NCBI GenBank assembly: GCA_029866215.1 | Contig: JARWZU010000088.1 | Coordinates: 186,001 to 250,000, forward strand | Length of the DNA stretch: 64,000 nucleotides | Direction: 5' to 3' | Source: Akkermansiaceae bacterium | GTDB lineage: Bacteria; Verrucomicrobiota; Verrucomicrobiia; Verrucomicrobiales; Akkermansiaceae | Shown: piece after piece, positions 49,874 to 63,658 of the stretch | How positions within the stretch are numbered: the stretch's first letter is position 1 | Layout: each line of letters begins with the position of its first letter | Made by a program: the position numbers and the translations under genes | The notes under the pieces: model-generated | Database searches by the model: none | Told to the model about the DNA's origin: nothing | What the model saw: only the letters and a program-made list of their open reading frames with translations

Positions 49874-51604
49874 TCAGTTCTCCAGCAACTGTTTTAGGCG
49901 TAGATCACCGGCGGCGGGGCGGATGGCGCGAGCGGGGCCGAGGAACTGGCGGCGGAGGTCAATGAAAGGGCGTGCCCTCTGTTCAGTCAGGTGATCGTAA
50001 TTCGGATTGAGCGCGGGCATGTATTTCGTCGCGACATTGGCATCCAGCCAGTCGTTGAGTTCCTTGAAGAGCTGCCGTGTTTTTTCCGGCATCGATTCGG
50101 CGAGGTTTTGTTTTTCGTAGGGATCGTTCTTGAGGTCGTGCAGCCAAAGGCGGCCGTTCCAATCGAAGATCAGTTTGAAATCGCCCTTGCGGATGGCGGA
50201 GTGGGGAGTGAGTGGGAAACCGTCGTCTGGGTGCAGTGGCGCGACGTTGAACGGATAGTGCCAGATGAAGGTGTCGCGAACGTAAGCCTTGGTCTTGTTC
50301 GATGGGTCCTTGAAGAGGGAAACGAGGCTGTGGCCGTCGATCTTGTGCTTGGCACGAAGCGTCTCCGGATCGATGCCGCCGGCCTGGACGAGGGTGGGAA
50401 ACAGGTCGCTGGCAGCTACGGGGACATCTGACCAATTTCCGGCGGGAATCGCCGCGGGCCAGCGGAGAATCAGCGGGACGCGGATGCCGCCCTCGAACAT
50501 CATCGCCTTGCCGCCCTTGAAGGGGGCGTTGCTGGTGGTGGGAGTGTCGCCTTTTTGGGTGAGGTAGGAGACGCCGCCGTTGTCGCTCATGAAGATGACA
50601 AGGGTGTTTTCTGTTAAGTTAAGTTCATCGAGCGTGGCCATCAGGCGGCCGACGGATTGGTCGAGGCTGCGGACCATTCCGGCGTATGTCGCATCGGTGT
50701 GGCCGTTCCAGCCTTTGGTCGGTTTGTTTTTAAAGTGGTCGATGTCCTGTTGCTTGGCCTGGAAGGGCGAGTGGACTGCGAGTTGGCAGAAATAGAGCAG
50801 GAATGGCTGGTCCGGCCGAGTTTTGTGGTGGGAGCGGATGAAGCGGTCGGCCTGGGTGGTGAGGTGGTCGGTCAGATAATCCTCAGCGGTGGCTTCCCCG
50901 GATTTTCCCCACAGCAGTTCCTTCTGCGGCATGGTGGGGTCGTTCTTTGTCTTGCGGTCCCAGAGCGGCTGCCACTTGAAGAATGGCGAGCCGCCGGCAT
51001 CGAAGTAGGCGATTTCCTCAAATCCCTGGTCGCGAGGCTGATAGCCTTCCGCGCCATGGCCGCCGACGTGCCACTTGCCGATGAATGCCGAGCGGTGGCT
51101 TGTCAGGGCCTCGGCAAAGGTGAGTTCGTCCCGGCCTTGGTCGGTCTGGCGGCCAGCCGGGAGGGCGAGCAGGGTGCTGCCGTTGAGCAGGGCTTGCGGG
51201 GTCTTGATCGGGTCGCCCCAGTAGCGGGCATCGAGCGGGAGATAGCTGGGGGGCGCTTGCTGATTGAGAGCGTAGAAGGAGAGAGCGGTGTGCGGAGTGG
51301 CAGTGGTGACGCCGAGTGAGGGTGCGTTTTTCCCGGTGAGCAGTGACGCGCGGGTGGGCGAGCAAAGCTGATAGGCATAGGCCTGTGAGAATGCCAGACC
51401 GCTGGCGGCGAGGCGGTCAAGGTTAGGAGTTTCATAAAACATCCTGTCCTTGCCCTCGCCGGTGGCTTTTTCCGCGAATGCGTTCACATCGGTGTAGCCG
51501 AGATCGTCGGCGAGAATGAACAGGATGTTCGGCGGCTTGGCGGCGTGCGCGCTGGTGATGAGCAGCAGCGGCAGCAGCGCGCAAAGGCGGGGGAATGGTT
51601 TCAT
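49874..51604 (-). CDS. Secreted type I sulfatase
   Basis: Hydrolyses a sulfate ester, probably on a polysaccharide, in the periplasm or outside. Signal peptide (LCALLPLLLITSAHAA), then the sulfatase fold: NILFILADDLGYTD metal ligands, the modification motif CSPTRASLLTG (Cys81, converted to formylglycine in the family), FIGKWHVGG, and IFMSDNGG with the second metal-binding part. 576 residues is normal. A C-terminal subdomain contains RKGDFKLIFDW and LWLHDLKNDPYEKQNLAE. A maturase was not seen in the window. The fucP-type remnant lies 30 bp upstream, which suggests they once formed an operon. Confidence 0.93.
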   Translation of the reverse strand: MKPFPRLCALLPLLLITSAHAAKPPNILFILADDLGYTDVNAFAEKATGEGKDRMFYETPNLDRLAASGLAFSQAYAYQLCSPTRASLLTGKNAPSLGVTTATPHTALSFYALNQQAPPSYLPLDARYWGDPIKTPQALLNGSTLLALPAGRQTDQGRDELTFAEALTSHRSAFIGKWHVGGHGAEGYQPRDQGFEEIAYFDAGGSPFFKWQPLWDRKTKNDPTMPQKELLWGKSGEATAEDYLTDHLTTQADRFIRSHHKTRPDQPFLLYFCQLAVHSPFQAKQQDIDHFKNKPTKGWNGHTDATYAGMVRSLDQSVGRLMATLDELNLTENTLVIFMSDNGGVSYLTQKGDTPTTSNAPFKGGKAMMFEGGIRVPLILRWPAAIPAGNWSDVPVAASDLFPTLVQAGGIDPETLRAKHKIDGHSLVSLFKDPSNKTKAYVRDTFIWHYPFNVAPLHPDDGFPLTPHSAIRKGDFKLIFDWNGRLWLHDLKNDPYEKQNLAESMPEKTRQLFKELNDWLDANVATKYMPALNPNYDHLTEQRARPFIDLRRQFLGPARAIRPAAGDLRLKQLLEN

Positions 51605-51634: not shown

Positions 51635-52066
51635 TCAATGGCCCCTTGTGACACGCACGTCAAGTACACCTTCCGAACCGCTGAGTTTGCTCCAGAAGAG
51701 TCCGTAGCCGGCGACCCAGACGAAGCAGACGAGCGGGACGATGAATCCGGCGGACATGCCGTCCGTGCTGGTGTCGGCGATGTGGCCCATCAGCTTGGGC
51801 ATGATTGCACCGCCCATGATGGCCATGACGATGAAGGAGGAGGCGTTCTTCGCGCGGCTACCGAGGCCGTGGATACCGAGCGAGAAGATCGTGGGAAACA
51901 TGATGGACATGAAGAAGTAGCTGAGGAACAGCGCGATTGCGGAGGCCCAACCGAGTTTCAGAAGAACCAACAGGCTGCAAACGGCGGCGGCGATGGCGAA
52001 GGTGCCGAGCACTTTGTGAGCGGGGAATTTCTTCAGCAATCCGGCGCCGATGAAGCGCCACTCAAT
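51635..52066 (-). pseudogene. 5'-truncated FucP-type sugar:H+ symporter
   Basis: The frame codes the C-terminal third of an L-fucose permease-like MFS protein: WRFIGAGLLKKFPAHKVL, FFMSIMFPTIFSLGIHGLG and SSFIVMAIMGGAIMPKLMGH match E. coli FucP closely. Upstream of about 52066 the frame turns into unrelated Arg/Ser/His-rich sequence and no start with transporter-like sequence follows, so roughly 290 N-terminal residues are missing. It cannot transport as it stands. The 265 bp between it and the sensor kinase gene hold no gene I can support. Confidence 0.85.
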
Positions 52067-52331: not shown

Positions 52332-53981
52332 ATGTCGTGCTTGAATCGCAAATTTCCCCTGATATATTCACTTTCTGATTTGATCACCATCCGCAAAATT
52401 CTAACACTTGCTGTATTTTCCTGCCTGCTGCATGGGGAACTCGCGGCGGCGATCTCCGTAGATGTCTTGGTGAATAGGGACGCAACTGCCCGGCAGGGGT
52501 CTAATCTCACGCTACCGGCGGGCACCAACGACCTGCGTTTTTTTGTAAAACCCCAGTCGCTGTCGGTGCGTTACAAACTCGAAGGTCTCGATGAGGACTG
52601 GAAACAGAGAGTGGATACCATTTTCCTCCGAGTGGTTTTTTTCAACCCAAAAGGCGACCCGATCCAAATGAACCCCTTCCCCGCAAGCGGTCGAAGCGCG
52701 GGCTGGGGAAAAACAACCGAGGACTCCGAATTCACTCCGCGGGTTGAAAATGTCACCGTGCCACGTCATGCGGTTTACATGTCCCTCGCCATGACCACCG
52801 CCGGACCCGCCTCGCTCATCGGGATCTACGCGATCAAGGATTTGAGGGTCTCCGCGATGGGAGAATCCGAGTTCACCACCAAGGTCCTGATGTCCGCCGG
52901 CGGATTTCTAGAAAAACCCAATGCGGAGTGGAAAAAGTCCGGCACCCATCCCTCCATGGCGAGCATGCTCGAACACCAAAATCAGACGGATTCCTCACCC
53001 ATTCTCCAGATCGTCGACGACGACATCAACGCCCATGCCGACTGGACGACGGGGATCAAGATTCCTCCTGACGTCGCTAACCGCGGAACCCTGAAAATCA
53101 GTTGGAAAGAAGCCTACAACACGGGATTGGGCGATAACTTCACAGCGGTCTATGAGCGTCTTCCCGCTGGGAAATACCGTTTCGTGGTTGAAGACCTCTC
53201 CTTACTGGGGAAACCGCTGCAATCGAGAGTCTCTGTTTCTATTATCGTTCCGCAGGTTTTCTGGAAGAGCTTCTGGTTCTGGGGGGCCGCCACCTTGGTA
53301 CTCGCCTTGATTTCGATCGTGATCGGACGTTATTTGCTCCGTCGGAAGATTCGCCACCATCTGGAGCAGGAGCGGATGATTTCCGAGGAGCGGCGGCGGA
53401 TCGCGCTGGATTTGCACGACGACATCGGCACGCGAGTTTCCCACATCTCGTTGGTCGCCTCCCATGCCGACAACGCCATCCTCCATGAAGAGGCAAACAA
53501 GGCGTTCGGACAAATTTCCTCCATGTCCCGCGACTTGATCGGCGCCCTATCGGAATCCGTGTGGATGCTCAATCCAAACAACGACGACTTGGAATCGCTG
53601 GTGGATTTCCTCTACCGACTCGTCAACGAACTCTGCCGCTTGAAGAATATCCGTTGCCGGGTGGACGCAGTGTTCGTGATGGAGAAACAAACCATCAGCT
53701 ATGAATTCCGGCACAATGTGAGCCTCGCGGTCAAAGAGTGCGTGAACAACGTGCTGAAACATTCGCACGCCACCGAGCTCGACATGAAAATCGAACTGGA
53801 AAAGAACGTTCTCGCGATTAGCATTACCGACAATGGTGTCGGTATCTCTGAAAAATCCCGCCGCACCGGTCTCGGGCTCGACAGCCTCAAAAGCCGCATG
53901 AAATCCATCGCTGGTAATTGCACGTTCGAGCACCTTGCCGAGGGAGGTCTGCGGATTATTCTAACCGCGCCAGTGGCATAA
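52332..53981 (+). CDS. Sensor histidine kinase, NarX/HisKA_3 type
   Basis: 549 residues. An N-terminal hydrophobic segment (residues about 22-40) acts as signal or anchor. A large periplasmic sensor region contains LRFFVKPQSLSVRYKLEGLDEDW near 70-95, like the Y_Y_Y modules of polysaccharide-responsive hybrid sensors. A second transmembrane helix lies at about 313-333. The cytoplasmic part has a HisKA_3 dimerisation domain with phospho-acceptor His362 (RRRIALDLHDDIGTRV) and an HATPase_c domain (VKECVNNVLKHS, SITDNGVGI, GLGLDSLKSRM). The cognate regulator gene follows after 19 bp. Confidence 0.92.
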   Translation: MSCLNRKFPLIYSLSDLITIRKILTLAVFSCLLHGELAAAISVDVLVNRDATARQGSNLTLPAGTNDLRFFVKPQSLSVRYKLEGLDEDWKQRVDTIFLRVVFFNPKGDPIQMNPFPASGRSAGWGKTTEDSEFTPRVENVTVPRHAVYMSLAMTTAGPASLIGIYAIKDLRVSAMGESEFTTKVLMSAGGFLEKPNAEWKKSGTHPSMASMLEHQNQTDSSPILQIVDDDINAHADWTTGIKIPPDVANRGTLKISWKEAYNTGLGDNFTAVYERLPAGKYRFVVEDLSLLGKPLQSRVSVSIIVPQVFWKSFWFWGAATLVLALISIVIGRYLLRRKIRHHLEQERMISEERRRIALDLHDDIGTRVSHISLVASHADNAILHEEANKAFGQISSMSRDLIGALSESVWMLNPNNDDLESLVDFLYRLVNELCRLKNIRCRVDAVFVMEKQTISYEFRHNVSLAVKECVNNVLKHSHATELDMKIELEKNVLAISITDNGVGISEKSRRTGLGLDSLKSRMKSIAGNCTFEHLAEGGLRIILTAPVA

Positions 53982-54000: not shown

Positions 54001-54633
54001 ATGATCCCCGAGAAAAAAAGCGTCGTCATCGTCGAAGACGACCTCCGGCTCCAGCAGCACCTGATCGAAATCATCAAGGGCGCGAATGATATCACCTTTT
54101 TGGGTGCGGTTTCCTCCGCCGAGGAGGCCGAGCTAAAGATCCCCGCGCTCCGGCCTGACGTCGTTCTGATGGACATCAATCTGCCCGGAAAATCAGGCAT
54201 CGACTGCATCCGCGGGCTGAAGAAGCGCCTACCAAAACTCGAAGTAGTGATGCTCACGGCCTACGAGGAGGAGGACAACATTTTTCGGGCGCTGAAGGAG
54301 GGTGCGAGCGGTTATCTCATCAAATCGAGCAATTCGAATGACATTCTTGATGCCATCCGCGACGTGTTCGCCGGCGAGTCTCCGTTCTCTGGCCCCATCG
54401 CGCGGAAGATGGCGATGTATTTCCGGGAAGAGCGGCAAAACCAAGACGAACGTGAAACCCTGTCCCCTCGTGAAACCGAGGTTCTCAAGTTATTGGCCGC
54501 CGGATACATCCACAAGGAAGTGGCGGATCAGCTGGACATCACGGTGCCCACCGTCCGTACCTATGTGAGGCGCATCTGCTATAAACTGCATGTCCGCAGC
54601 AAGGTGGAGGCAATCATCAAATATCTGTCTTGA
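54001..54633 (+). CDS. NarL/LuxR-family response regulator
   Basis: 210 residues. Receiver domain with acidic pocket (VVIVEDDL), phospho-acceptor Asp58 (VVLMDINLPGKSGID), Thr switch (VVMLTAYEEED) and Lys (GYLIKSSN). The C-terminal LuxR helix-turn-helix reads LSPRETEVLKLLAAGYIHKE, then LDITVPTVRTYVRRICYKLHVRSKVEAI. It pairs with the sensor kinase gene 19 bp upstream. Nearby targets could be the divergent GH71/99-like and sulfatase-fusion genes, by inference from position. Confidence 0.94.
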   Translation: MIPEKKSVVIVEDDLRLQQHLIEIIKGANDITFLGAVSSAEEAELKIPALRPDVVLMDINLPGKSGIDCIRGLKKRLPKLEVVMLTAYEEEDNIFRALKEGASGYLIKSSNSNDILDAIRDVFAGESPFSGPIARKMAMYFREERQNQDERETLSPRETEVLKLLAAGYIHKEVADQLDITVPTVRTYVRRICYKLHVRSKVEAIIKYLS

Positions 54634-54725: not shown

Positions 54726-56135
54726 TTACGGCGCGGTGGGAGATCCATTTGAGCGCGGTTGGGCTTTTGGGGGACCGGGCGTTGATCGATCGCTGCGATC
54801 GATCTGAGCATTACGGTCGATTTCTGATAGTGACTTCGTATCGTTTTTGATAGAAACGAGTCGATTGGGGACTGATTTTTGCGTGACGCGCTCGCCCCGA
54901 AGCAAGCGACCGCCCTCTCCCGTCAACCAGAGGTAGTGGTCGCTGGGAAGTCCTTCGTAGGTGACGAATGGGTTGGGGCCGACTGGGGGTGTGTTGGTAC
55001 ATTTGAAAATGGCGGTTCCTTCGTCAACCTCGTCGAACATGGCCACATAGATCATCGTGGCTCCTGCCCTTTTGGCACCACTGAACTGGGACCACAGGAA
55101 TTGGCCTTTCAGCCTTGGCGTCCGGTCGAATGCATCCTGCGGGTTCTTGTTGTGCCAACTGAATCCTGGAAAGACCACCGGCAGAAAATCGATGGACCGG
55201 TCGCTGCACCACTTGATATCCGCCGCGTAATACTTGTCGGCATGGGCGCTTGCGTCGGCGGGGGTGGAGTAGCGGCCGGGGGTCCATGGGCTGATGACAT
55301 CGGCAAGTTTCAGTAAGTCATGGAACGCTGGGTCGGTGATGGCATCCCGGTCTTGATTCCGCCACCCCGTGGGTACTCCGAGCATGACCGAGCAGCCGTC
55401 GGCTTTGAAAAAATCGACTAGGGCGCGGCATTCCTGCAGCGTGTACTCTCGCCCGTCATTTAAGCCGATCCCCCAGATCGCGACGAGAGGCTTGCCCTCG
55501 TGATGCAGGTAAGCGGGGTCACGGCCCATTTTCATCTTGTTCCTGAGCATCTTCCAGTCCGCTGAAATCACGGACGTCTCGCCAGCATTGAGTCCGCTTA
55601 GATCGTACATGACCGCGTATGTCCGGCCGTTGAGATTGGCACCTTCCCGGCAATTCGAGAGCACCACGTCCTTGTGATGTCGCAAGGATTCACCTTTCAG
55701 ACCGTTGGCGAAACGTTGCACGAAGACTCCGTCGATGCCGTAGTCGCGCATCCATTTGAAATGCCGCGTGACCGTGGAGCGGTTGTGGGAGCTGAAAACG
55801 ACCGCTGCCTCTCCGTTCGCGTGCTTGAAGCCGGTCGGAAAGCACTCTGCGGGGGTGGCATCGGACATGTCGGGCCACATATCGACGGTGACATTTCCCG
55901 GCGCAAAGGGTTTTGATCCACTGCGCGCCCAGTGGGTCCAGCCGAGACCGGCGCCATCGTCCGGGGTATTGAACCATCCTTGGTAGCCCGCCATCACCTT
56001 GCCCTTCAGGGTCGTGGTATTTACACTTTTGACGCTAGTTCCGGCATACGGAGTCAGGGGATCGACCCGCGCTTCGGCTCCCAGCGATGCTGCGGTAAGA
56101 AAAACCGTGAGAATGAAGAAAGGAACAAATTTCAT
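54726..56135 (-). CDS. Secreted GH71/GH99-like protein
   Basis: From the ATG at 56135 (MKFVPFFILTVFLTAASLGAEA, signal peptide) it has 469 residues. The (beta/alpha)8-type pattern KVMAGYQGWFNTPDDGAGLGWTHW, HFKWMRDYGIDGVFVQRF, YAVMYDLSG, KPLVAIWGIGLNDGR, VISPWTPGRY and FLPVVFPGFSWHN matches the glycoside-hydrolase 71/99-like proteins common in Bacteroidota and Verrucomicrobiota, where relatives cleave alpha-mannans or alpha-glucans. The C-terminal 40 residues are low-complexity. The frame is open further upstream to 56261 but without a signal. It is divergent from the sulfatase fusion across a 315-bp region. Confidence 0.82.
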   Translation of the reverse strand: MKFVPFFILTVFLTAASLGAEARVDPLTPYAGTSVKSVNTTTLKGKVMAGYQGWFNTPDDGAGLGWTHWARSGSKPFAPGNVTVDMWPDMSDATPAECFPTGFKHANGEAAVVFSSHNRSTVTRHFKWMRDYGIDGVFVQRFANGLKGESLRHHKDVVLSNCREGANLNGRTYAVMYDLSGLNAGETSVISADWKMLRNKMKMGRDPAYLHHEGKPLVAIWGIGLNDGREYTLQECRALVDFFKADGCSVMLGVPTGWRNQDRDAITDPAFHDLLKLADVISPWTPGRYSTPADASAHADKYYAADIKWCSDRSIDFLPVVFPGFSWHNKNPQDAFDRTPRLKGQFLWSQFSGAKRAGATMIYVAMFDEVDEGTAIFKCTNTPPVGPNPFVTYEGLPSDHYLWLTGEGGRLLRGERVTQKSVPNRLVSIKNDTKSLSEIDRNAQIDRSDRSTPGPPKAQPRSNGSPTAP

Positions 56136-56223
56136 CGGAAATAGGGTAGAGAGTCGGAGGTTACACTGAATTAAACCAAAGACTGATATAAGTGAAAATT
56201 TGCTACTTTTTGAAAAAGTTGGG

Positions 56224-56355
56224 TAGTCCACAAAACGATGACACTTCCAGCGACCTGACAAGAACTCGTGTTATCTATCAGGCCGAATGAAGCGAGACTC
56301 AACGTCTTGGAACCCCGACTAAAAATATGCGGCGATGTCGTCGCTTTGTGGACTA
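56224..56355. repeat. 132-bp element with 20-bp inverted ends
   Basis: Left end TAGTCCACAAAACGATGACA (56224-56243) and right end TGTCGTCGCTTTGTGGACTA (56336-56355) are inverted copies with 18 of 20 positions matching. The 92 bp between contain no gene. It occupies the divergent promoter region of the GH71/99-like and sulfatase-fusion genes. It could be a non-autonomous mobile element (MITE) or a paired operator; no target-site duplication was recognised. The rest of 56136-56450 shows no gene. Confidence 0.85.
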
Positions 56356-56450: not shown

Positions 56451-59400
56451 ATGACGCCCATCCAAAAAAGCCACCCGCGCCCCGCTTCTCCACAACGGAA
56501 GCGCACGTTCCTTGGCTCATTGGATGGGCTCCTCGCCGCCATGACGCTAACGCTCACCGCACCCTCCGCCTTCGCTGCCGCCCTCACTTGGGACACGACA
56601 TCAGGTGACGGAGCCACCATTACCGCGGCCAGCGGCAACTGGAACACGACTGCAGGAAACTTGGTCTGGAACAACGCCGTTTCGAACGTGATTTGGAGCC
56701 AGACCTCAGCCACCGACGGCAGCAACACCGCCACTTTTGCCGGCGCAGACGGCACCACCGACCAGTATGTGATCACGCCTGCTGCGCAAATGGCTGCGGA
56801 ATCGATCACCTTCAACAGCAGCGGCTACAAAGTCACCGGCAGCACGCTGGCCATCATGCCGACGACCACCACGAGCGGGGCCATCACCGTCGCCGCTGGC
56901 AAGACCGCCACCATCAATTCCGCCATCGCCTACGCCAACAATGCAGCCGCTGCCATCACGGTGAACGCGGGTTCCACACTCAACCTTGGCGGCGGTGCGA
57001 CCAATTCGCAATACACCTTTTCGGGTGCCGGCACGGTCAACGTGACCGCGGGGTCTTACTCAACCAACACCGGTGCCATCAACGTTGCCACTTTTAACCA
57101 AACGGGCGGCACCTTCAACATCACGCCAGGAAATGGCGTCGGTTACAACATCAACAGCACCACCCAAAACGTCGCCTACAACCTCTCCGGCGGCACCGTG
57201 ACCGTGAACGGCAACGCCTCGACGGCCACCGTCAGCAACGCTCATTTGGGTATCGGAAACGGGACCAGCGTCAACACATCCGCCTTGAATGTGAGCGGCA
57301 CCGGCGTCTTGAACGTGGGCACCACCGCCAGCCGTTCCGGCGAGATTCGCATCGGAAATACCGCCGCATCCAACGGTACGCTCAATGTGACGGGTGGCAC
57401 GGTCACCGTTGGCACCGGCAGCGCGACCAACCAGATTTACTTCCACAAGGCCGGGTCAAACTCGGGCTTCACCGCCGCGATGACCCAGTCCGCCGGCACG
57501 GTGACGACTAACGGCATCCAGTTCGGAGGTTCCACGGGTGCTACCACCTATATTGCCAACTCAGCAGCGAACTTAACCCTCAGCGGCGGCAGTCTTTACA
57601 TCGGTGCGGCAGGGATCACCAAAGGTACGGACGCCAGCGCCCTCGCAACCACCATCAAGCTACAAGGCGGCACACTGGGTGCCGAACAAAACTGGACCTC
57701 CTCGCTCGACATGAAACTGGGCACCACCACCGGCGGGCCCACCTTTCTAGCAGCTACCAGCAGTGCCGTTTCCAAAAACATCACCCTCTCGGGCGTGCTT
57801 TCGGATGATAGTTCAGTCAACGGCAAACTCACCAAGACCGGTGCCGGTAATCTGACACTCGCTGGCGCGAACACCTACACGGGCCCTACCACCATCAGCG
57901 CAGGCACCTTGACCTTGGGCGCGAGCAACGTGCTGCCGAACGCATCGGCCGTTTCGATCGCTGCCGCCACCCTCAACGCGGCGACATTTGCCGACACCGC
58001 CGGAACCCTCGACGTCACCGCTGCCACTTCCACCATCAACCTAGGCGCCGGAGCCGCGCTCGCGTTTGCGAACAGCAGCGCGATCGACTGGACCGGTGGC
58101 ACCCTGACCCTCACCGGGACTTTCACTTCGGGCTCCTCCCTGCGCTTCGGCACCACCAGCGGAGGATTGACCGCCACCCAACTCGGTAAGATCACCGCAA
58201 GCGGTTCTCCGACCTTCACCCTAAACGCAAACGGCTATCTGGTGGACAACACATCTCCACCGGCCAGCGACGCGGTCTTGAGCTTCGGCAACAGCGGCAC
58301 CGGGTTCGGGCCCACGCCGCCCTACATTCTCTCGGGAAGTAACACCGCGCCGATTTCCCTAACCTTTTCCATCAATGGCACCGGCGTGATTTCCCTCAAC
58401 GCCTCCACCACCAGCTCCAGCACCATTTTTATCAACATGGTAAACGAGTGGGATAGCAGTGATGTCGGAACGGTGACGAATTCTGCTTGGTTCAATACAT
58501 CCTTCACTCTAACGGGAAGCGGATCCGGCGGAGCAAACCTCGCCATCACCGAGAACGGCGGCGGCGGCATCGGCATCCAGGGCGAAAATACCAACCGGGT
58601 CGATGGCCTGAACTACGGCACGGACGGCACGACATCCACCCCGGAAACCCTGACGTGGACGCTCAGTGGTGCGCCAGCCGGCATGGCGCTCACCTTGAAA
58701 AACTGGTCCTACGTCGAGGGCAACGGCTCAGACATCCGGGTCTCGAACGGAACGACAAATGCCGACTTCCCGAACATGTCGGGTGCCACGGGAACGCTGA
58801 GCCTCCCTGCTGATTTTGTGCTCAACAATGGTGGTTCGCTTACTTTCAAAGAAATTCCCGGAATTGGGCTAACAGATGGCGCGAGCATCGCCGGCTTCAC
58901 TTTTGCGGTGGTCGCATCTTCCGCGCCTCCTGGGTCCGGAGGATTTGACAACGGCGCGGGAAACAACCTGTGGACCAACGCCACTAACTGGAGCCCCGAT
59001 GGCGTGCCTGCGTCTCCTACCGATGCCGTCATCGATGGCTACGATGTCATTCTCAACAGCGCGGCAGCCACCGGCCCGGACGAACTCCTGATCACCAACG
59101 GTTCGCTCACCGTGACCGGCAGCGGCGCGCTGACGATGCGCGCCATGACCCTCGGCCGCGACCTCACTAAAACCGTCCGCCTCGTCATCCATGGCTCAGG
59201 CGTGTCCTTCGGCTATTCCGGCTCATCCGCTACCGACGAGTTCGCGGTGGGTTCTGCCGCCACCGTGGAAACCAAGCCCGACTCGGGCGGCAGCGAGCCG
59301 CTTGAACTCGGGGCCGCCAAACTGGTCCTCGACGTCGGGTCAGAGTGGCTTCTCGATGGCACTCATTTCACCGGCCCCTACAACATCGGCGACCGTTTCG

Positions 59401-61781
59401 TGCTGGCGAACTTCGGATCACTCTCCGGCAGCACGGCAGCCATGCGCACCCGAAATTTCGACCTACCTTCCACTCGTCGGCTCGAATTGGTCGCCACCGC
59501 CACCTCGATTTACTACGAGGTGAAGACCCAGACCGCCGCCGTCGGGCCGAATATCATCATCATCAACACCGACGACCAGGCCGCCGACCAGCACTACGGT
59601 TTTGATGGCAGGAATTGCATTACACCGACGCTGGACTCACTCGTTTCCACTGGTCTGAAATTCAACTTGGCATTCTGCGCCGCGTCCGTATGCGGCGCCT
59701 CACGCTACTCGCTGCTCACCAGTCGTTGGCCCTCGCGAAATACCAGCGACACCTTCATATCTCGCTACCCACTCGGAACACTCGGCCGCTTCGGCGTGTC
59801 GGACACCGAGCTGGAGCATGACGGCCAAAACATCGGTGCATGGCTGCAGCAGGCCGGCTACCGCACCGGCTTTGTCGGGAAATCCCACGTGCTCGATGAC
59901 GACTTGAACTTTACCAGCAATTGGGCATCCAAGGGACTCATCACCTACGGCCAGACGGACGATCCGGCCACCAATGCCACGGTCAACGCGGCCATGCAGC
60001 ACAACCACCGCGTCGTCTGCCAGAACATGCGCACGCTGGGATACGATTATGTCGACGGCTTCTACCACGCCAATCTCAAGGAACTCTATAATAATAAGCT
60101 GAACGTCCACAACCAAGAGTGGATCACCAGCCGCGCCCTGAAATTCATCGATGAAAACCGCAACGAGCCTTTCTTCCTCTACATGGCGCCCACCATCAAC
60201 CACGGGCCGGTCAACGATAGCCTCACCACCGACCTGAACGCCGACCCGCGCTACACCAGCGCCGGCTACCTGCCCAACGAGGACTACTCGTTCATGCCGA
60301 CGCGCGCGTCGATCATCTCTCAGGTGAACGCCGCTGGCAAAGCACTCATCACCGCTCGCGAGACCTGGATCGACTACTCGGTCAAGGCCATCCTCGACAA
60401 GCTCACCGCCTACGGCATCCGCAACAACACGCTGATCATTTTCACCTCCGACCACGGCGAGAAGACGCTCTCCAGCCCAACGATCTGGGGCAAAACCTCG
60501 CTCTACGACTTGGGCATGAAGGTGCCTCTGGTGATGAATTGGCCAAATGGCATCGCCTCACCCGGTCGTGCGTACAACGAATTGGTCAGCCACGTGGACA
60601 TCGGATCGACGCTGCTTGCACTCGCGGGGGCCTCCAACCTACCGACCCGACCGGTGGATGGTGTCAGTCTGGTGCCGGTGCTCAACGGTAGCAGCGCGGC
60701 GGTGCGGAGCGACGTCTTCGGCGAGATGGGCTACGCCCGCGGCGTTCGCACCAAGACCCACAAATACATCGCCGTTCGCTACACCCCGTCGATTTACACC
60801 CAGATCGCGAGTGGCTATCGTTGGCCGGAATACAACGCCAGTACAACGACGGGAGGAACCGTCCCGCGACCCTATTACATCAACAACAGCGGTCTTGGTG
60901 GGGGCGTCGCGATGACCAACTCGACCTATTTCGATGACGACCAACTCTACAACCTAACCACCGATCCGAACGAAAACACCAATATCTATGGTCAAGAGCC
61001 CGCCACCACCTACGACCTCAAGAAACGCCTCGCCAGCTACATCGGCGGGATTCCCAACCGCCCGTTTCGGCAGTTTAGCGACAACTCCAAGGAGTTCTCA
61101 CCCACGCCGACTGCAACGCCCCAACCGCCGCAGTCACTTCAAGGGCAGTTCCAAGGAGTCAACCAAGTCAAACTCGACTGGACCGACGCCGCCAACAGCG
61201 AGCTTGGATACATCATTCAAAAATCCGTCAACGGAGGCCCATTCCAGATCATCGATGAAAAACCATCCGGAGTCACCACCAGCACTGTCTCGGTGAACGC
61301 GGGCGTGGAGGACATCGTTCTGCAAGTTTCCGCCTACAATTCGCTAGGCGATGCGGGTGCGGTGAATCCGGTGGATCTGCTCACGCCGAACTCCTGGCGT
61401 TTCAGAACCTTTGGCACCGCCGATCCGACTCTCATCGCGCCGGCCAGCCAGTGGAGCGCCGATGCCGACGGCGACGGACAAACGAATTTGTGGGAGTATG
61501 CCTTCGCGACCAATCCCCTCGCGTCGTCCTCGGTCGCGCGTTCCGAGGGCCGAATCACCGCGCAAGGCCAGGACTCTTATCTGGAATACTTGGTGCCCCG
61601 TGACGCCCGCAGAAATATTCAGATCGTTGGCGCCGTATCGGAGGATCTCATCACGTGGTTGAAAGGCGCGCCAGCCTGTGTGGTGGCCGAGGATACCCCG
61701 ACCCACCTGCTTTTTCGTTGCGCCTCGCCTGTCAAAGACCATCCCAAGCAGTTCATCCGGGCTGAAATCGCACAGCCATAA
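56451..61781 (+). CDS. Giant surface protein: beta-strand repeats fused to a sulfatase
   Basis: 1776 residues. Signal peptide (residues about 25-43). Residues 45-700: Gly/Ser/Thr/Asn-rich beta-helix repeats with autotransporter-associated motifs (GAGNLTLAGANTYTGPTTIS). 700-860: a beta domain of unknown family. About 865-1030: another repeat block (NNLWTNATNWSPDGVP). About 1033-1540: a sulfatase domain with metal ligands (NIIIINTDDQ), modification motif VCGASRYSLLTSR (C-x-A-x-R type), VGKSHVLDD and IFTSDHGEKT. Then a fibronectin-III-like module (VKLDWTDAANSELGYIIQKS) and a calcium-type repeat (DADGDGQTNLWEYAF). No outer-membrane barrel and no PEP-CTERM tail. It probably displays a sulfatase at or beyond the cell surface. 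Confidence 0.88.
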   Translation: MTPIQKSHPRPASPQRKRTFLGSLDGLLAAMTLTLTAPSAFAAALTWDTTSGDGATITAASGNWNTTAGNLVWNNAVSNVIWSQTSATDGSNTATFAGADGTTDQYVITPAAQMAAESITFNSSGYKVTGSTLAIMPTTTTSGAITVAAGKTATINSAIAYANNAAAAITVNAGSTLNLGGGATNSQYTFSGAGTVNVTAGSYSTNTGAINVATFNQTGGTFNITPGNGVGYNINSTTQNVAYNLSGGTVTVNGNASTATVSNAHLGIGNGTSVNTSALNVSGTGVLNVGTTASRSGEIRIGNTAASNGTLNVTGGTVTVGTGSATNQIYFHKAGSNSGFTAAMTQSAGTVTTNGIQFGGSTGATTYIANSAANLTLSGGSLYIGAAGITKGTDASALATTIKLQGGTLGAEQNWTSSLDMKLGTTTGGPTFLAATSSAVSKNITLSGVLSDDSSVNGKLTKTGAGNLTLAGANTYTGPTTISAGTLTLGASNVLPNASAVSIAAATLNAATFADTAGTLDVTAATSTINLGAGAALAFANSSAIDWTGGTLTLTGTFTSGSSLRFGTTSGGLTATQLGKITASGSPTFTLNANGYLVDNTSPPASDAVLSFGNSGTGFGPTPPYILSGSNTAPISLTFSINGTGVISLNASTTSSSTIFINMVNEWDSSDVGTVTNSAWFNTSFTLTGSGSGGANLAITENGGGGIGIQGENTNRVDGLNYGTDGTTSTPETLTWTLSGAPAGMALTLKNWSYVEGNGSDIRVSNGTTNADFPNMSGATGTLSLPADFVLNNGGSLTFKEIPGIGLTDGASIAGFTFAVVASSAPPGSGGFDNGAGNNLWTNATNWSPDGVPASPTDAVIDGYDVILNSAAATGPDELLITNGSLTVTGSGALTMRAMTLGRDLTKTVRLVIHGSGVSFGYSGSSATDEFAVGSAATVETKPDSGGSEPLELGAAKLVLDVGSEWLLDGTHFTGPYNIGDRFVLANFGSLSGSTAAMRTRNFDLPSTRRLELVATATSIYYEVKTQTAAVGPNIIIINTDDQAADQHYGFDGRNCITPTLDSLVSTGLKFNLAFCAASVCGASRYSLLTSRWPSRNTSDTFISRYPLGTLGRFGVSDTELEHDGQNIGAWLQQAGYRTGFVGKSHVLDDDLNFTSNWASKGLITYGQTDDPATNATVNAAMQHNHRVVCQNMRTLGYDYVDGFYHANLKELYNNKLNVHNQEWITSRALKFIDENRNEPFFLYMAPTINHGPVNDSLTTDLNADPRYTSAGYLPNEDYSFMPTRASIISQVNAAGKALITARETWIDYSVKAILDKLTAYGIRNNTLIIFTSDHGEKTLSSPTIWGKTSLYDLGMKVPLVMNWPNGIASPGRAYNELVSHVDIGSTLLALAGASNLPTRPVDGVSLVPVLNGSSAAVRSDVFGEMGYARGVRTKTHKYIAVRYTPSIYTQIASGYRWPEYNASTTTGGTVPRPYYINNSGLGGGVAMTNSTYFDDDQLYNLTTDPNENTNIYGQEPATTYDLKKRLASYIGGIPNRPFRQFSDNSKEFSPTPTATPQPPQSLQGQFQGVNQVKLDWTDAANSELGYIIQKSVNGGPFQIIDEKPSGVTTSTVSVNAGVEDIVLQVSAYNSLGDAGAVNPVDLLTPNSWRFRTFGTADPTLIAPASQWSADADGDGQTNLWEYAFATNPLASSSVARSEGRITAQGQDSYLEYLVPRDARRNIQIVGAVSEDLITWLKGAPACVVAEDTPTHLLFRCASPVKDHPKQFIRAEIAQP

Positions 61782-61786
61782 ATTCG

Positions 61787-62509
61787 ATGAATCCTATGAA
61801 TCCCACAAACCGTCCATCCCTAAGCGAAATCAAGCCGCGAGCCTCGACAAAAGGCTTCACCCTCGTCGAGCTCTTGGTCGTCATCACCATCATTGTGGTA
61901 CTTGCCGCTCTCACGACCGTCGGCATCGCGAAAATCAGATCCGCGGCGCGGGGGGCCACCTGCACTTCCAACCTCCGGCAGATCGGGGCGGCCATGCTTT
62001 CCTATGCGTCCGATAACAACAGCCAGTTGCCACCGCTCGAAGATAGAACCGGAGCTGGCGATAGCCTATTGGGGATCTGGCCAAAGATCATCGCAGATGG
62101 CGGGTATCTCCCCAGAGTCACCAATAGCAAAGGCATACTTTCCTGCGGTGCCGGCGCCTGGGCTTGCTCAGACTGCACCGTCGTGCAAACCAATTACCAA
62201 GGCTACGGCGTGGCTGAAGGAACTGTCATGAAAGTAAAAAAATCATCAGAGCCCGATGCAAAGGCTTCGACCCTCCTCCAGATCCCTAATCCCGAACGAA
62301 CATGGTTAGTGGGGGATGTGGCCAACCAAGCGCCCGATCTCAAAACAGGCTGGTACGCAACATGGGCAAATCCCTCGAGGTGGGGCGCACGCACTCCTGC
62401 CGCGCGTCACTCGAAAAAGGTCAACGTCTGCATGGTAGACGGACACGTGGAAAGCCTGACGCTGAAGGAACTGCAAGCGCCGGACAAGAACTATACGATG
62501 TACAAATAG
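61787..62509 (+). CDS. Prepilin-type N-methylation protein (pseudopilin-like)
   Basis: 240 residues. After a basic leader comes the type IV prepilin signal GFTLVELLVVITIIVVLAALTT, cut after Gly and methylated on Phe in known systems; Glu5 is present. The globular part has SNLRQIGAAMLSYASDNNSQLPP and the C-terminal HSKKVNVCMVDGHVESL, the H-x-DG pattern typical of the abundant secreted pseudopilin-like proteins of Lentisphaerota, Planctomycetota and Verrucomicrobiota. It starts 6 bp after the sulfatase-fusion stop, so both are probably co-transcribed. Confidence 0.9.
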   Translation: MNPMNPTNRPSLSEIKPRASTKGFTLVELLVVITIIVVLAALTTVGIAKIRSAARGATCTSNLRQIGAAMLSYASDNNSQLPPLEDRTGAGDSLLGIWPKIIADGGYLPRVTNSKGILSCGAGAWACSDCTVVQTNYQGYGVAEGTVMKVKKSSEPDAKASTLLQIPNPERTWLVGDVANQAPDLKTGWYATWANPSRWGARTPAARHSKKVNVCMVDGHVESLTLKELQAPDKNYTMYK

Positions 62510-62968: not shown

Positions 62969-63658
62969 TCATTCGGCGGAAGCCATGGGCATCAGCCGCT
63001 CGTCCACCGCCTGATAAGTCAGGTTTCCCGCCTCGTTGCGATAGATGAAGGCGTAGCAGCGGACATTGTCGCGATGCGGCCAGCGGGAGTTGAAGAAGGG
63101 CCTGACCTTGCCGTTATCGGACTGATAGAGGGTGGCCTGATAGAAGGGCTTTTCACCGCGGCTGGGAGCCTTGGCGAACACGGCCATCCGCGGTTTGATC
63201 AGCGTTTTTTCCGATCCGAGAACCGCCATGACGGGGGTCTCCGAGGCGTTGAAAAACAGCGTGCTGTCCGCGCCGAAACGGGACTCTCCGCCATTGACGA
63301 GATGGACCTTGTAAGTGGCTCCGGCAGGTTCCAGCAGGATGATGAAATCTCTGCCCTCCGCCGGCAGCACGACGTTTGCAACGGCGCGGAAGCCGGATTC
63401 CTGCTTGGTGTCCGGAACCGCGAGGGCGAAGTCAAGGGTGCTGGGCTTGAACGGCTCACTGAGGCCGCGCGCGCCGATCTGGACCGCTGCGCCGGCCACG
63501 CCGCCGGACAGCGGCTGGAGCTTGACGATGGGCCCGCCCGGGACGAGCAGCATGGCTCGAACGCCTGCCGTCTTGGGCTCCGCGGCGGCGGTTAAGGAGC
63601 CTGAGAAACAGGCGGCGACCAGAAAGAAGTTGAACAAGTGGCGGAACATGGAGCTCAA
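62969..63658 (-). CDS. Secreted protein of unknown function, Verru_Chthon-linked
   Basis: 229 residues with a signal peptide (FRHLFNFFLVAACFSGSLTAAA). The mature part is beta-rich (VRAMLLVPGGPIVKLQPLSGG; EGRDFIILLEPAGATYKVHL; NSRWPHRDNVRCYAFIYRNE). No family is recognised. It starts 26 bp after the partial Verru_Chthon cassette protein A gene and is followed, in frame after its TGA, by a truncated paralogue, so the three belong to one leftward transcription unit. Confidence 0.72.
   Translation of the reverse strand: MSSMFRHLFNFFLVAACFSGSLTAAAEPKTAGVRAMLLVPGGPIVKLQPLSGGVAGAAVQIGARGLSEPFKPSTLDFALAVPDTKQESGFRAVANVVLPAEGRDFIILLEPAGATYKVHLVNGGESRFGADSTLFFNASETPVMAVLGSEKTLIKPRMAVFAKAPSRGEKPFYQATLYQSDNGKVRPFFNSRWPHRDNVRCYAFIYRNEAGNLTYQAVDERLMPMASAE

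Follow-up and report, generated by a model that had tools for sequence, protein, structure and literature searches.

In the genome of an Akkermansiaceae bacterium, a single unbroken reading frame encodes a protein of 1776 residues in which PATR-type sequence precedes a sulfatase, raising the questions of which polymer this enzyme attacks, how it leaves the cell and how its two parts came together. A sequence-only reading of the DNA had described it as a self-displayed sulfatase fusion and had guessed at fucans, carrageenans and ulvans as substrates. We analysed the protein within the window, i.e. the whole stretch of 64 kb, corresponding to C4:186001-250000 in the coordinates of contig C4.

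The sulfatase OpSulf1 of Ochrovirga pacifica belongs to subfamily S1_51 and is endo-acting on C6-sulfated alpha-1,3-mannan; it reportedly has to act first for GH195 to cut (PMC13063451). In Polaribacter sp. Hel1_33_78, the sulfatase and GH195 are fused in one protein carrying a T9SS domain (PbSulf1-GH195), and the mannan enzymes of the Polaribacter locus are split between extracellular and periplasmic ones (PMC13063451). Verrucomicrobia appear in that paper in the reference list alone, and the verrucomicrobial island analysed here therefore appears to be undescribed in it.

Results

Domain organization of the protein

The features of the locus are listed in Table 1. Much of the earlier domain description was borne out. 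The N-terminus is signal-peptide-like and ends in ...TAPSAFA/A, the SAFA/A end being common to a PATR paralogue (C4:253272-255785), and it scored just below the cut-off of a simple hydrophobicity rule. Pfam identified a complete sulfatase domain of family S1 (PF00884, residues 1033-1394, E 3e-39, 135.5 bits against a cut-off of 25) together with SGSH_C, and NCBIfam agreed with the Pfam domain calls. The C-x-A-x-R modification motif reads C1081-G-A-S-R1085, which places the predicted modified cysteine exactly at residue 1081. The FnIII-like module was modelled by AlphaFold2 with a pLDDT of about 70-86 and aligned with fibronectin type III (best VIA-align Z 10.8, rmsd 2.1 over 88 residues); the calcium-type repeat corresponds to a D-A-D-G-D-G loop.

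The proposal that beta-strand repeats fill about 1000 residues ahead of the sulfatase stood only in part. A single curated PATR repeat was found there (PF12951, 43.5 bits against a cut-off of 27), and the stretch is made of three different pieces: a PATR-family-like part (residues 27-478), a linker, and a region belonging to the sulfatase gene (residues 605-1030). The AlphaFold2 model of the last piece had a mean pLDDT of 42, too poor for a fold assignment.

Table 1 Features of the sulfatase gene and its surroundings (window coordinates)
Feature	Position	Strand	Basis or remark
Second, stand-alone sulfatase, left edge of island	49874..51604	-	Pfam
Histidine kinase with Y_Y_Y sensor, candidate locus regulator	52332..53981	+	Pfam Y_Y_Y, HisKA_3, HATPase_c
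NarL-type response regulator, paired with the kinase	54001..54633	+	Pfam Response_reg and GerE
GH195 homologue, predicted endo-alpha-1,3-mannanase, sulfatase partner	54726..56261	-	divergent from sulfatase gene
PATR-sulfatase-FnIII-C-terminal-module protein	56451..61781	+	1776 aa
Signal-peptide-like N-terminus (residues 1-42, ...KRTFLGSLDGLLAAMTLTLTAPSAFA)	56451..56576	+	read from sequence
PATR-gene-derived segment (residues 27-478)	56529..57884	+	blastn, 83% DNA identity, gap-free, to C4:254413-255758
Sole curated PATR repeat (residues 460-489)	57828..57917	+	Pfam PF12951 43.5 bits, NCBIfam TIGR02601
Beta-rich pre-catalytic region (residues 605-1030)	58263..59540	+	conserved in PATR-less orthologues
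S1_51-type sulfatase domain (residues 1031-1543)	59541..61079	+	9FVT E 3e-105; clade support 100/99
Cys1081, predicted formylglycine, in C-G-A-S-R	59691..59693	+	sequence motif
Fibronectin type III module (residues ~1554-1655)	61110..61415	+	AlphaFold2 and VIA-align
Recurrent C-terminal module (residues ~1666-1776)	61446..61781	+	calcium-type loop, then seven-strand beta domain with terminal F-x-R
Pseudopilin-like protein (N_methyl and DUF1559/H-X9-DG), directly downstream of sulfatase	61787..62509	+	Pfam, NCBIfam

The sulfatase domain groups with S1_51 enzymes

The best PDB relative of the sulfatase domain was OpSulf1 (9FVT), which matched over 507 residues (1037-1543) with an E value of 3e-105 and about 39-40% identity. 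The second match, a kappa-carrageenan sulfatase, was far weaker (4e-26). We therefore rejected an identity as a fucan, carrageenan or ulvan sulfatase, and the substrates first guessed at gave way to that of the closest characterised relative, C6-sulfated alpha-1,3-mannan.

Relatives were collected from 388 genomes of the phylum, from further genome contigs and from a flavobacterial family, and a maximum-likelihood tree of 78 rows was computed. The window domain fell in a 12-row clade (support 100/99) with orthologues from two Akkermansiaceae (76% and 67% identical to it), an extra sulfatase of the related genome G388 and the flavobacterial Sulf1 enzymes, including 9FVT. The remaining window-genome sulfatases included in the tree fall outside this clade. 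Among the flavobacterial genomes, G572 encodes a protein 100% identical to 9FVT, and two others carry Sulf1-GH195 fusions of 1400 aa. By its position in the tree, the sulfatase is a member of the S1_51 clade, and S1_51-type activity, of which a single one is described (endo-action on C6-sulfated alpha-1,3-mannan), is predicted for it.

Residues C1081, R1085, K1144, H1146, H1251, D1334, H1335 and K1348 are invariant across the alignment. After C-G-A-S-R, the window protein and its closest orthologue have LTSR, another orthologue and most relatives LTGR. This replacement could weaken the recognition of Cys1081 by a formylglycine-generating enzyme (FGE); nine FGE-family matches were found in the window genome.

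A GH195 homologue is encoded next to the sulfatase

The product of the divergent neighbouring gene shares 45-46% identity with OpGH195, with a stand-alone Polaribacter GH195 and with the GH195 portion of the Polaribacter fusion (E about 1e-111 to 1e-137, in small local sets). The homology is full-length and the D-E-x-D-E-G motif is preserved. We considered the possibility that this protein was a GH99 enzyme. Yet, its match to Pfam GH99 was weak (34 bits) and that to GH99 structures reached an E value of only about 2e-3, and this identity was set aside in favour of GH195.

A GH195 homologue was present in all nine checked genomes holding an S1_51-like sulfatase. Across the 388 genomes of the phylum, the five with a strong sulfatase match were all among the 44 with GH195 (hypergeometric 1.5e-5); the independent evidence is smaller than this value suggests, because one of the five is the window genome and two belong to the same genus. 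With the window genome left out, four of four strong-sulfatase genomes also had GH195.

The window genome encodes a second GH195-like domain, 38% identical to the first. It lies in a protein of 1094 aa (C4:265681-268965, minus strand) that also has a PATR repeat and the C-terminal module described below. PATR is thus joined to at least two enzymes of the putative mannan pathway in this genome.

The gene pair lies in a putative mannan island

The kinase and response regulator of Table 1 directly adjoin the sulfatase/GH195 pair. The genes checked to the left of 49.8 kb have housekeeping roles (ammonium transporter, ThrRS, LpxC, RuvB, ParB). Rightward on the same contig follow three GH92s (C4:260834, C4:275844 and C4:286675), two of which share 54% and 50% identity with GH92s encoded in the Polaribacter locus. 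Sulfatases, a GluP/FucP-type MFS transporter for sugars and a ROK kinase are also encoded there. One of these sulfatase genes (C4:270585-273551, minus strand) encodes a 988-aa protein in which two sulfatase domains, both complete, follow one another. The exo-sulfatase for mannose-6-sulfate was matched only loosely, by C4:263344 (34% identity to a sulfatase of the O. pacifica locus). Judged by sequence, the island corresponds, in Verrucomicrobiota, to the sulfated-mannan locus of flavobacteria.

At the island's edge, a FucP-type sugar transporter is represented by its C-terminal third (51635-52039, minus strand), which matches positions 292-408 of the 410 in the model. The N-terminal part was not seen within 1.4 kb upstream, and this is probably a pseudogene remnant. 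The island also encodes an M12/M66-like metallopeptidase of 1632 aa (C4:255917-260815, minus strand), with PKD and carboxypeptidase-regulatory domains, PATR and the C-terminal module.

The identity of 39% to OpSulf1 leaves room for another sulfated alpha-mannan or another regiochemistry. More broadly, the mannan locus might be no more than a relative and the true substrate of the sulfatase some other sulfated polymer, for example a glycan rich in fucose or galactose, or a further sulfated alpha-mannan. Sulfatase specificity can shift inside a subfamily, the genome has many other sulfatases (39 PF00884 matches), and some S1_51-like relatives (loci L067 and L068) adjoin other sulfatases, with no GH195 named in the stretch seen. 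However, the adjacent GH195 gene, the genome-wide co-occurrence and the homologous GH92s all point to alpha-mannan, and we regard a different polymer as rather unlikely. We consider it probable that the protein is an exported, probably surface-held, endo-acting S1_51 sulfatase with an acquired PATR stalk, which starts the breakdown of C6-sulfated alpha-1,3-mannan.

Origin of the PATR segment

By blastn, window positions 56529-57874 aligned gap-free over 1346 bp, at 83.2% DNA identity, with the reverse strand of C4:254413-255758, which belongs to the PATR gene C4:253272-255785, ending in PEP-CTERM. Identity of the PATR segment to another PATR gene was 80%. At about 57,880, sliding identity to the neighbouring PATR gene dropped from 0.81 to 0.3-0.5, and from residue ~605 onward the homologues are sulfatase genes in sister genomes. 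The sulfatase, FnIII and C-terminal modules are common to all three close orthologues. PATR is missing in two: L064 (1466 aa), where the first pre-catalytic beta domain is apparently present twice, and L065, whose N-terminal part looks disrupted. PATR was therefore most likely added in the window lineage, and the alignments indicate that it was most likely gained by recombination with the neighbouring gene. Its lack in two orthologues also means that it is dispensable for the basic function.

The architecture had been thought rare, and this held: PATR occurred in one of the 273 sulfatase ORFs of the collected loci (a redundant set), that of the window protein itself, and no paper on PATR-type repeats with a sulfatase in Verrucomicrobiota was found in the open-licence PMC literature. 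Since the chimera is known from one genome, it could be a recent accident. It could also be non-functional, or an assembly artefact in which a PATR N-terminus was misjoined to a sulfatase gene; the sharp DNA break at about 57.9 kb separates two otherwise unrelated homologies, and the same join was found in no second genome among the loci compared. Yet the frame is open through the join and over 5.3 kb, the join lies inside a contig of 304 kb and the catalytic residues are intact. Moreover, the PATR segment is no collapsed repeat, as its identity to the nearest copy is 83% instead of 100%. We hold such a defect or artefact to be improbable, and the PATR-sulfatase architecture to be real and uncommon.

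Export route and C-terminal module

PATR repeats usually come from autotransporter passengers, and the protein might be a classical or broken type Va autotransporter, i.e. a PATR passenger with a sulfatase whose barrel was lost or is encoded apart. The absence of a barrel noted from the sequence was confirmed with PF03797, which was found neither in the protein nor in the window genome (97% complete), whereas the controls were detected. As this genome has no PF03797 though it has 36 PATR matches, an autotransporter route is unsupported. Furthermore, PATR precedes the enzyme in the chain and orthologues lack it, and several PATR proteins of the genome have PEP-CTERM or the shared module at their C-terminus. 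Type Va was rejected, and even its broken form appears highly improbable. The fusion itself exists, and an exported, probably surface-held sulfatase fits the evidence.

Two other known routes were also rejected, T9SS on the basis of its translocon. PEP-CTERM sorting requires a C-terminal PEP motif, transmembrane segment and Arg cluster; this tail is absent from the window protein and present in the paralogue C4:253272. As to T9SS, the translocon component SprA (PF14349) was not detected in the window genome or in the related G388, G081 and G211, while it was found in both flavobacterial controls.

The claim that the protein has no sorting tail was right as regards PEP-CTERM, but residues ~1666-1776 form a recurrent C-terminal module. 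It comprises ~110 residues, with a D-x-D-x-D-G-x-x-N-x-x-E loop followed by a seven-strand domain ending in F-x-R, modelled by AlphaFold2 as a seven-strand beta domain (pLDDT about 77-90). Our model of the module, built from seven sequences of which five are from the window genome and match by construction, gave 40 matches in this genome of 3.0 Mb. The module was terminal in 33 of 35 distinct full ORFs, usually finishing 0-5 residues short of the stop codon. Among the module proteins with a complete N-terminus, the majority start signal-peptide-like by the simple hydrophobicity rule. When seven members were searched, NCBIfam had no model for it and Pfam gave just weak TSP3_bac matches, in two of them; a fold search with the model of FnIII plus module returned a match list filled by the FnIII part. 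A second large sulfatase (C48:30321-33866, minus strand, 1181 aa) has the module and no PATR.

Within the island, the module is carried by the endo-sulfatase, one of the two GH195s and the metallopeptidase-PKD-PATR protein, and is absent from the GH92s and the stand-alone sulfatases read. This distribution matches the division into extracellular and periplasmic enzymes reported for Polaribacter (PMC13063451). We infer that the module, placed like a T9SS tail, serves as a sorting or retention signal, and it is the best candidate in the protein for such a function. It is conceivable, though we think it doubtful, that it is the sorting or export signal of an undescribed Verrucomicrobiota secretion or anchoring system, equivalent to the T9SS tail, with the PATR-sulfatase as one of about 33 cargoes.

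Near the sulfatase lie genes for a conserved 229-aa protein (62969-63658, minus strand) and a GspK/Verru_Chthon_A-like protein of 1174 aa (63685 to C4:253209, minus strand), relatives of which also adjoin the sulfatase in L064. With the pseudopilin also close by, a pilus-like or type II-like assembly could be involved in export. No paper on a Verru_Chthon cassette was found in the open-licence PMC literature.

Discussion

The sequence-only reading missed the S1_51 type and its pairing with GH195, the probable gain of PATR by recombination and the shared C-terminal module. With OpSulf1, the protein shares homology over the full catalytic domain, the clade, the active-site positions and a GH195 in the locus. 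It differs by the addition of PATR, the beta-rich region, FnIII and the C-terminal module, by an identity of 39%, and in that it is known from sequence. PbSulf1-GH195 is likewise a large multimodular secreted protein, in which an extracellular endo-sulfatase and a GH195 perform the first two steps of mannan breakdown. In the window, by contrast, these are two divergent genes, the sulfatase has PATR, FnIII and the C-terminal module, and SprA was undetected. The window protein is best read as working like the Sulf1 half of PbSulf1-GH195.

The N-terminal 478 residues are homologous to the island PATR genes, part of the Verrucomicrobiota PATR proteins (PF12951, TIGR02601); these genes, unlike the window protein, have no sulfatase, and they end, without a barrel, in PEP-CTERM or the C-terminal module. 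The latter resembles the T9SS C-terminal domain, though it is probably no member of that family, in being a beta-rich module at the end of many signal-peptide proteins, including extracellular enzymes. It differs in opening with a DxDxDG calcium-type loop, in its family matches, limited to weak TSP3_bac ones, and in the lack of a detected SprA.

In the mechanism that we propose, Cys1081 would be converted to formylglycine by an FGE-type enzyme, and the S1_51 sulfatase would remove sulfate inside the mannan chain. The neighbouring GH195 enzyme would then cut at the desulfated mannose, and the GH92 mannosidases and exo-sulfatases of the island would trim the fragments, the sugars presumably being taken up by the MFS transporter and phosphorylated by the ROK kinase. 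The PATR part, apparently copied from a neighbouring surface-protein gene, would be a stalk or spacer rather than an autotransporter passenger, and the C-terminal module would stand where the Polaribacter Sulf1-GH195 homologue has its T9SS tail.

Sulfated alpha-mannan was described in 2026 as an exudate of diatoms that selects for Polaribacter; should our reading hold, Verrucomicrobiota attack this polymer too, with homologous enzymes (S1_51, GH195, GH92) but a different display strategy. The PATR chimera would be a clear example of a surface repeat shuffled onto an enzyme. As the enzyme is T9SS-tailed in one phylum and bears another module in a SprA-negative genome, the pair offers a natural test of the role of this module, which is a question on protein export in Verrucomicrobiota.
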